DNA of 64,000 nucleotides from NCBI RefSeq assembly GCF_000971275.1, contig NZ_LAPV01000113.1:1-64000 (forward strand). The letters run 5' to 3'. Shown here in pieces: positions 18,633 to 64,000 of the stretch. The notes under the pieces are model-generated. The model searched no databases. It was not told the DNA's origin and worked only from the letters and a program-made list of their open reading frames with translations. The position numbers and the translations under genes were made by a program. The first letter of the stretch is position 1; each line of letters opens with the position of its first letter. This DNA comes from Devosia psychrophila (GTDB lineage Bacteria; Pseudomonadota; Alphaproteobacteria; Rhizobiales; Devosiaceae).

Positions 18633-19011
18633 CGGGCTCTCAAGCGAGAAGTCTGCGCCTGCCTTCCTTGAGCGGAGAAATTGAGAGACGGGTTCGCTAA
18701 CTCCACCGGTGGACCCCACCCATCGAGTGAGGCGCTCGACCTTCGTGATCGGCAAGTCCGGAACCATCCTCCCTGCCAAGGATTGGCTGGCAGAGACCTG
18801 CGCGCGTCAACCGGACATGGCGGCAGAGGGAACGGGGATGGTTTTTCCGGTATCCCGCCCCGGCCAACGAAATGGCAGCCGAGCCCTTATCCCGCCCGCG
18901 CCGGTCTCACCCTAATCTTGCAAGCGTGATTCACCCGATCGCCGGTGGATAGCCTCGCCCTGTGATCGAGCTTGCCTTGCGGCTGCCCCCGCCCTGTGAT
19001 TCAAGGACTGC
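18633..19011. other. Intergenic region without a recognisable gene
   Basis: About 380 bp between the glycosylase and recQ. Short frames are open on both strands but none has a ribosome site, a natural N-terminus or a recognisable domain. No clear terminator or family A/B repeat is seen. An AAGGA near 19001-19005 serves recQ. Confidence 0.5.
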
Positions 19012-62715: not shown

Positions 62716-63001
62716 GGGCAACTCCTCGGGCCAGTCGGCACCGTCACCGATGAAATAAATCATTAACCCTAACACCCAGTTAAAGTAGGGTTTGAGGAGC
62801 GTTGCCGCCACTCTGCCGGGTCGCTTGTCGGGGTCTTTTGAGACCAACCGGATTGTCAATTCAGTCAGGCAGAGCTGGAATTTGGAAATTCCTCAAGGCC
62901 ATATCCAGTAACGGAGCGCCTGCCGAAAGGGACCTCGCTTAGCCGCCTCCTCTGACAACCATCAACATGATGACCAGCTGTAGCCGGTGCCCGAGGATAA
63001 T

Positions 63002-63327
63002 ATGGCTAACCCAAACAAGACTTCATCACCTCGTTGATCGCTGCTGGCGCCAGGGAGTTTGCACTGCAACGGGTCGGAGGCCTTAGTCGCCGAGCGGCAG
63101 CAGAACTCGCAAGGGAGTGTGCCACCAAGAAAGAAACGGCCGCAGTCACCGAGAAGCTCCAGACCAGTATTCGCTTGCCGACCGACAAAGCGGCATATGC
63201 GATTGCACTGGCGCAGTGCCTCGCTCCTTACTACCCCACCATTGAGGACCTAACGTCCTCAATGGCTTTCTTGCTGATGGGGCCAGACCGCTTTTTCGAC
63301 GGCTACTCTTTGATCCCAAAGCCCTAG
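63002..63327 (+). pseudogene. Possible frameshifted small gene, unknown product
   Basis: An ATG at 63002 with a good GAGG site 5 bp upstream opens MANPNK but stops within 12 codons. One base out of phase, a frame reads on as QDFITSLIAAGAREFALQ through about 100 codons to KP at 63327, without its own ATG or ribosome site. Inserting one A near 63012-63016 would join them into a roughly 107-aa protein. This may be a decayed gene, an assembly error, or coincidence. No family is recognised. Confidence 0.4.
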
Positions 63328-63510
63328 ACGCCTATATCGCCGGGCAGCGCTTGATCGCCTGAGCCAAACTTGTGCATATTCTGTGTATGATCACGAAGTG
63401 GGCAACTTGGCGCAGTTTTGAGCCATTCTGATCTGCGCCGCTTCAGCGGGCCGCGGCCGAGCCCTCACGTAAATCTTTGATACTTCAACCGAAACTGCAA
63501 CGCGTCGCAG

Positions 63511-63527
63511 TTGGCACGCTTCGTGCA
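63511..63527 (+). promoter_or_regulatory. Sigma-54-like promoter
   Basis: TTGGCACGCTTCGTGCA matches the -24/-12 consensus (YTGGCACGrNNNTTGCW) with only two deviations, with GG and GC at the required spacing. About 150 bp of leader separates it from the nitrate-type binding protein. Such genes are often under NtrC and RpoN. Confidence 0.75.
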
Positions 63528-63571
63528 ATGTCCGGTAGCGAAGGCGCTGCTCCCAAGACGGCCCTTTAATC

Positions 63572-63660
63572 GACGTCCAATGATGGGCGTCCCCAGGCAA
63601 AGCTGCCAACAGGTGCCGCATGGAGTCGCCAGACCATGCTGACCAGTTGGCGGCTTTTTT
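63572..63660 (+). promoter_or_regulatory. ANTAR-type two-hairpin leader with terminator
   Basis: Hairpin P1: GACGTCC, hexaloop AATGAT, GGGCGTC (63572-63591). Hairpin P2: GGC, hexaloop AAAGCT, GCC (63596-63607). Both loops have A at position 1 and G at 4, as in ANTAR targets. An intrinsic terminator pairs AGCTGCCAAC (63601-63610) with GTTGGCGGCT (63646-63655) and ends in a T-run to about 63666. P2 and the terminator share bases 63601-63607 and so exclude each other, the arrangement used by NasT/NasR antiterminators. P2 has only three clean pairs. Confidence 0.7.
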
Positions 63661-63690
63661 GTTTTTCCAATCGGTGCAGTGGAGAACTTG

Positions 63691-64000
63691 ATGATGCAGA
63701 CCACGACGACCCGCCGCAGCTTTCTAAAGGGCGCTACGGCCACCGCCGCAACGCTGATAGCGGCACGGACACTCTTCCCGTCCGGAGCCTTTGCCCAGGG
63801 AGCAGGTCCGGAAGTGACGGGCGCGAAGCTGGGCTTTATCGCCCTGACCGATTCCTCGCCTCTGATCATTGCCCTCGAAAAGGGCTTTTACGCCAAACAT
63901 GGCGTGCCCGATGTCGAAGTGATGAAGCAGGCCTCCTGGGGCGCCACGCGCGACAATCTGGTGCTTGGCGGCGCCGCCAATGGCATCGATGGCGCCCATA
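63691..64000 (+). CDS. Nitrate/bicarbonate-type ABC binding protein, partial (NrtA/CmpA-like)
   Basis: The first about 103 residues of a longer gene cut by the window end. A twin-arginine signal (TTTRRSFLKGATATAATLIA) ends SGAFAQ, so the protein is exported folded. The mature start KLGFIALTDSSPLIIALEKG followed by FYAKHG is typical of the NrtA/CmpA/SsuA group and the closest match is to nitrate-binding NrtA-like proteins. The ATG at 63691 has GGAG 6 bp upstream (63694 also possible). The sigma-54 promoter and ANTAR-type leader in front support a role in nitrate assimilation. Confidence 0.85.
   Translation, partial: MMQTTTTRRSFLKGATATAATLIAARTLFPSGAFAQGAGPEVTGAKLGFIALTDSSPLIIALEKGFYAKHGVPDVEVMKQASWGATRDNLVLGGAANGIDGAH

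Follow-up and report, generated by a model that had tools for sequence, protein, structure and literature searches.

In Devosia psychrophila, the nitrate assimilation operon nrtABC-nirBD-nasA is very probably controlled in two steps, a start of transcription by NtrC and sigma-54 being followed by nitrate-dependent antitermination by NasT in the leader before nrtA. The leader was studied in a window of 64,000 nucleotides, with which contig C17 of a 4.5-Mb draft genome begins (window and contig numbering are the same); the contig extends 9 kb further. The leader elements are real and lie where a preliminary description of this DNA had placed them, with small corrections, and its reading of a dual nitrogen/nitrate switch is supported by the present analysis. 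The features are as follows.

63512..63527, plus strand: sigma-54 (-24/-12) element, TGGCACGCTTCGTGCA, with 11 of 12 scored consensus letters
63540..63567, plus strand: P0 hairpin, from fold and conservation, where the transcript is predicted to begin, with loop motif CTGCTCCCAAGACG at 63547-63560
63572..63591, plus strand: P1 hexaloop hairpin GACGTCC-AATGAT-GGGCGTC (A1, G4)
63596..63607, plus strand: P2 hexaloop hairpin GGC-AAAGCT-GCC (A1, G4), the predicted antiterminator
63602..63660, plus strand: intrinsic terminator, GCTGCCAAC (63602-63610) and GTTGGCGGC (63646-63654) followed by T6 (63655-63660)
63691 through the window end at 64000 to contig position 64980, plus strand: nrtA, encoding an NMT1_2 substrate-binding protein (PF13379)

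Under nitrogen limitation, NtrC would activate sigma-54 RNA polymerase at 63512-63527, with a start near 63538-63540; this step is suggested by the promoter element and by the presence of rpoN and ntrC. Without nitrate, NasS would hold NasT, P2 would not persist, and the terminator at 63602-63660 would form. With nitrate, NasS would release NasT, the ANTAR domain of which would bind the A1/G4 loops of P1 and P2; bound NasT would stabilise P2, which would take part of the terminator rising arm and allow readthrough into nrtA. The RNA elements for this second step are present in the leader, and the use ascribed to them follows that in studied ANTAR systems.

The leader belongs to the nitrate assimilation operon. 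The gene after it, described earlier as a nitrate-type ABC gene, is nrtA; its product carries a twin-arginine signal as judged by eye and is 89–90% identical in named records including Devosia submarina and Devosia naphthalenivorans. Past the window end, where nirB and nasA had been suggested as genes to look for, nrtA is followed by nrtB (TIGR01183), nrtC (TIGR01184), nirB (TIGR02374), nirD (TIGR02378), and a nasA-like gene, up to contig position 72286, with the first four all above curated cut-offs. The nasA-like product is a molybdopterin oxidoreductase of 879 residues, for which all profile matches were below cut-offs and the best was to a formate dehydrogenase model; we call it nasA, a putative name based on where the gene lies and on its matches with models of nitrate reductase.

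The regulatory genes of the genome were also identified. Contig C233 carries nasT (225051-225641), encoding receiver and ANTAR domains (PF00072 and PF03861), and directly after it nasS (225650-226876), encoding an NMT1_2 protein (PF13379) without an export signal peptide as judged by eye. Both sensor genes anticipated in the preliminary description are hence present, but on C233 and not beside the leader. A receiver-ANTAR protein with an adjacent NMT1_2 relative points to a nitrate sensor of the NasS-NasT type. Upstream of nasT, a fragment (L004 8360-8980) resembling the middle of nirB by eye was seen, apparently a decayed copy. There is a single rpoN match and a single ntrC, the latter scoring above its cut-off, in agreement with the regulators invoked earlier. 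The genome has two genes for ANTAR proteins, at least one of which the proposed switch needs: that of the NasT type and that of AmiR (AmiR_N plus ANTAR). The latter lies on contig C34 of this genome (L005 2924-9135), where an AmiC-like protein is also encoded and transporter genes and one formamidase-like gene lie alongside; the AmiC-like, transporter, and formamidase-like genes were named by eye, and no leader RNA was identified for the genes of this locus.

A second leader was found at C233:227002-227042, between nasS and cysG (NF007922, above cut-off), and was not used in building the model. It has a sigma-54-like element (TGGCACGAGTTATGCA), a P1 loop AGTGAC, a P2 loop AAAGCC, and a terminator. 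CysG is siroheme synthase, and NirB uses siroheme as its cofactor; this leader is most likely under the control of the same NasT. The preliminary description had included neither the cysG leader nor P0, nor had it shown how broad the regulon is.

The sigma-54 element was scored over 12 consensus letters, the consensus being taken from general knowledge; -24 GG and -12 GC stand at consensus spacing, and the near-consensus character reported before was confirmed. In 200 dinucleotide shuffles with both strands scanned, sigma-54 matches of equal quality numbered 0.42 per shuffled window and two nearby hexaloops 0.94, and in the real window a second sigma-54 match of equal quality was present on the minus strand. 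Because both are common in shuffled windows, neither a sigma-54 match alone nor two hexaloops alone carries much weight. The combination of two loops with an overlapping terminator was found in 0 of the 200 shuffles versus 1 in the real window. The strand 63540-63665 folds with -57.6 kcal/mol (z = -4.39), the terminator being the strongest part of the leader fold. The hexaloops AATGAT and AAAGCT, with A1 and G4 in both, were found as described before. The terminator rising arm contains the P2 3′ strand, so the reported overlap stands, with limits slightly different from the 63601-63607 given earlier: 63602-63607, or 63599-63607 with an A-U extension.

P1 and P2 are separated by a linker of 4 nt (CCCA), compared with 3–8 nt in 13 nrtA leaders of the genus (with L015, in which P2 has 2 pairs, counted as 3). 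It is slightly below the range of 5–12 nt given for eut leaders in part of PMC3369931, where a linker of 3 nt is described as having impaired EutV function. A P1-P2 test model was built from ten relatives, leaving out the window sequence, its closest relative L007, and L015; it found the window element with 69.4 bits (E 7.4e-15), the next match in the window having 15.9 bits (E 0.039). An Rfam search of the leader gave no family at gathering score, a negative whose weight depends on whether Rfam includes an ANTAR model. Elsewhere in the window, 18795-18902 matched the Rhizobiales small RNA Atu_At1 (RF02496) with 90 bits, and upstream of the leader a terminator-like hairpin of 11 pairs with a T-rich tail was noted at 63239-63265, with 0.9 expected in shuffles of the region.

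NrtA was searched for in 101 genomes (the window genome and 100 relatives), 18 of which had a match, 14 of these in the genus. The sigma-54 element, P1, P2, and terminator were all present in 13 of the 14 genus genomes with NrtA, the window genome included. A genus P1-P2 model made from those 13 leaders was used to search 75 genus genomes with stricter filters, by which weak matches are lost, and 83 strong elements (E up to 4.6e-5) were obtained in 53 genomes. ANTAR genes were detected in 52 of the 75. Gene and element were both present in 52 genomes and both absent in 22, with the element only in 1 (G053) and the ANTAR gene only in 0; the next best match in a genome lacking ANTAR (E 0.0017, G110) looked false on inspection. 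Since genomes share ancestry, a Fisher value for this co-occurrence overstates independence. The comparison argues strongly for a link of the leader element to ANTAR proteins and extends the nitrate switch to the Devosia family with unusually clean support: in 74 of 75 genomes, element and ANTAR gene are either both present or both absent.

Detailed inspection covered 52 of the 83 strong elements, and the weak match L106 was dropped as false. The persistence of A1/G4 loops and of the P2-terminator overlap in related leaders, named earlier as a check, was observed: G4 was kept in both loops in 52/52 elements, A1 of P2 in 52/52, and A1 of P1 in 48/52, with G in the other 4, while the terminator pairing was 9/9 in 51 elements and 8/9 in one. 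With G4 fixed, the P1 loops had 26 different versions. The G1 P1 loops (L097 2448, L098 14292, L099 2359, and L129 8053) all stand before NrtA-like genes. Covariation in P1 amounted to 27 cells changed on both sides among 51 distinct rows (the false match L106 among them), a score reached by 0 of 500 shuffles, and slid versions of the test gave 0 to 2 cells; on the 13 nrtA leaders alone, covariation was indistinct from shuffles (68 of 500 reached the score). The first downstream frames, 53 with L106 and grouped in clusters named by eye from sequences, were NirB-like (22), NrtA-like (14), transporters of the major facilitator type (5), CysG (2), NasA-like (2), and unassigned or in the wrong frame (8, including the window's own, the true gene of which is nrtA). 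ANTAR elements without a sigma-54 element were seen at L097 13278, L100 3394, and L098 3370. Two of these precede a large NasA-like reductase and the frame after the third (G025) resembles the same gene misread; all three are apparently attenuators inside an operon.

Outside the genus, the P1-P2 model gave nothing better than E 0.49 at the five loci (L020-L024) of the four genomes from other families that have NrtA. Named nrtA loci, a few of them from Devosia, were also compared (best 80 of at least 555). The model matched 10 of these best 80 at E ≤0.0002 and one further locus position at E 0.0016; with so few matches, leaders of the Rhizobium type were identified by motif and not by model. 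A strict automatic scan found the full element set in 30 of the 80, and a looser two-loop motif was found in 75, comprising 9 Devosia-type and 66 Rhizobium-type leaders. Among the 5 loci failing it, a leader is visible by eye in L161 and L190 and not in L134, and L178 and L181 look ambiguous. In the Rhizobium type (including loci among L140-L211), P1 is GTC-A..G..-GAY and P2 is GAY-A..G..-GTC, with a P1-P2 spacing of 33–42 nt (median 35) in these 66 of the best 80 loci. In 22 leaders displayed, of which 20 are of this type, another hairpin usually forms within the gap. Such a gap is longer than EutV tolerates, unlike the short linkers of the ANTAR RNAs studied, 20 extra nt between the loops having abolished EutV antitermination according to part of PMC8934654; the inserted hairpin may therefore bring the P1 and P2 loops together.

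The locus lacking a leader is that of Devosia naphthalenivorans CM5-1 (NZ_PYVW01000004.1, contig C34 of genome G045; loci L134 and L102). It has a sigma-54 element (TGGCACGGTTCGTGCA) 44 bp before nrtA. The frames assigned to nrtA, nrtB, nrtC, and nasA from their initial residues are open, as is a long frame in the position of nirB. No hexaloop pair or terminator was found between the sigma-54 element and nrtA, and no ANTAR match was found in the genome, estimated as 99% complete with 4% contamination. Weak local matches to the P1-P2 model (E 0.41 to 2.3; best in the genome, 0.086) were taken as chance. Nine letters, GCTGCCAAC, like the terminator rising arm, lie between promoter and gene. The simplest reading would be a joint loss of leader and ANTAR gene, and CM5-1 with its relatives offers a natural comparison for what the leader contributes beyond nitrogen control alone.

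Several other explanations were weighed against two-step control. The promoter might not be under NtrC/sigma-54 control, transcription coming from another promoter or from upstream. Its start site is a predicted one, and the chance frequency of equal-quality matches and the second one on the minus strand speak for this explanation; it is nonetheless improbable, since a sigma-54 element (≥9/12 letters) starts 27–60 nt 5′ of the P1-P2 match in 49 of the 52 related elements, 78 of the 80 named loci (best 80 of at least 555) have one with ≥10/12 letters no more than about 350 bp before nrtA, and a sigma-70 scan of 63000-64000 gave zero sites on the plus strand. It is highly improbable that the leader answers to AmiR (with AmiC), or to both proteins, rather than to NasT alone: the genome does encode AmiR beside an AmiC-like protein and the A1/G4 loop code is common to ANTAR proteins, but among the 52 ANTAR-positive genomes of the genus, 45 have just one ANTAR match, in every case of the high-scoring kind of NasT (E ≤1e-19), and in 10 of the 14 that contain the operon a gene of this kind is found upstream of nrtA at a distance of ≤2 kb.

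Equally little probability was given to a constitutive terminator, or a structure of the mRNA 5′ end, working without protein-dependent antitermination. That the terminator dominates the fold and that two nearby hexaloops arise about once per shuffled window by chance would fit such a structure; against it, the loops are conserved at positions 1 and 4 and variable elsewhere, P1 covaries, element and ANTAR gene are present or absent together in all genomes but one, and a terminator that is always on would presumably not be kept in front of such an operon. Points counted against the ANTAR-switch reading itself included the P2 stem of only 3 bp, the linkers of 4 nt here and 3 nt in some relatives, the indistinct covariation on the 13 nrtA leaders, the negative Rfam search, and the element without an ANTAR match in G053, a genome of 2.0 Mb in 140 contigs.

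Many leaders of the family carry a further hairpin, P0, between promoter and P1, with a near-invariant UCCUCCCAAGAC loop; the window loop, CTGCTCCCAAGACG, has one base changed compared with the form common in relatives. The exact loop motif GCTCCTCCCAAGAC was found 35 times in 26 of the 75 genus genomes (reversed control, 0), and 33 of these lie 8–13 nt before a P1-P2 element on the same strand. Searching 136 family genomes gave 41 exact matches (reversed control, 1), 38 of them in leaders just upstream of P1-P2; this includes 5 further matches in leaders of two other genera, and 3 matches were elsewhere (L253, L254, and L255). A search of 397 genomes across the order for the sigma-54 element with P0, made with exact letters that miss the window genome's own variant, was positive in 9, all in the family (9 of the 21 genomes drawn from the family versus 0 of the other 376). 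P0 is not universal: it is carried by 19 of the 52 inspected elements (slightly looser pattern), and in the 13 nrtA leaders three have a different hairpin at its position and one has none. The stems differ from copy to copy, with arms that for the most part fit each other, the 35 distinct arm pairs having a mean of -7.55 kcal/mol versus -6.61 when re-dealt (sd 0.27; best of 100 rounds, -7.35), a difference that shared ancestry may inflate. An alternative P0-P1 pairing, considered by eye, is not favoured because the P0 arms match their own partners.

The P0 loop is similar to the anti-Shine-Dalgarno loops found in small RNAs of alphaproteobacteria, for example NfeR1, an RNA active in nitrogen control, as described in part of PMC10746234. 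The α-r14/NfeR1-like sRNAs have three hairpins, each with CCUCCUCCC unpaired, according to the same part of that paper; P0 was rejected as one of them, being one hairpin with CUCCUCCC, and the nine-letter form is absent from the leaders displayed for this comparison. Action of P0 in trans, as an anti-Shine-Dalgarno RNA on one conserved target, was also considered, and no conserved exact target was supported, leaving room for imperfect pairing: CTTGGGAGGAG followed by ATG within 2–9 nt gave 21 matches, spread over 16 of the 75 genomes (reversed control, 1 match), identical spacers were found in only one pair (G009 and G011), and the pattern, which leaves out the complement of the window's variant loop, had no match in the window genome. 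With ≤2 mismatches, the P0 motif occurred 17 times in the window genome versus 17 in the reversed control. Among the titles listed from the open-access literature, none was on Devosia NasT leaders or a P0-like hairpin. Tentatively, and with appreciable doubt, P0 might serve the NasT leaders of the family as a third, specific recognition element, acting via an unnamed protein or base pairing. If so, the terminated leader, formed in nitrogen-starved, nitrate-free cells, could act as a small RNA linking the switch to other genes; P0 is a concrete, testable point in these leaders.

Ntr control combined with ANTAR antitermination is a textbook combination. The earlier term "compact dual switch" is apt, but the arrangement is not new, with precedents in Klebsiella nasF and Paracoccus; what is added here is comparative support, a natural loss, and the P0 hairpin. 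The likenesses and differences given below refer to parts of the cited papers. In Klebsiella, the nas genes are under Ntr control and NasR antitermination (PMC5424462, PMC3369936), and the Devosia leader, as read here, resembles the K. oxytoca nasF leader in low-nitrogen Ntr activation with nitrate-responsive ANTAR antitermination, in A1/G4 in the P1 and P2 loops, and in the overlap of P2 with the terminator. It differs in that the sensor is NasS with a receiver-ANTAR NasT instead of the one-component NIT-ANTAR NasR, the operon begins with nrtABC, and the leader has the extra P0 hairpin. The two-hexaloop antiterminator code and terminator overlap are also those of the Enterococcus faecalis eut leaders, where EutV studies define the loop code (PMC3369931, PMC8934654); there, unlike here, the signal is ethanolamine through a kinase, and the linkers are longer than the 4 nt found in Devosia (PMC3369931). 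The proposed action of NasT is like that at nosR of Bradyrhizobium diazoefficiens, where NasT, once freed from NasS, engages the leader and impedes the terminator, the target there being a denitrification gene (PMC6759348). Paracoccus denitrificans, likewise an alphaproteobacterium, controls its nas genes by NtrBC and NasT-NasS, and its nasA leader shares leader hairpins, and the NasS-NasT nitrate sensing and NtrBC control proposed here, with that of Devosia (PMC5424462). In P. denitrificans, the sensor genes adjoin the leader and a tested NtrC site lies before nasT (PMC5424462), whereas in D. psychrophila nasT-nasS are on another contig and the sigma-54 element stands directly before the leader.
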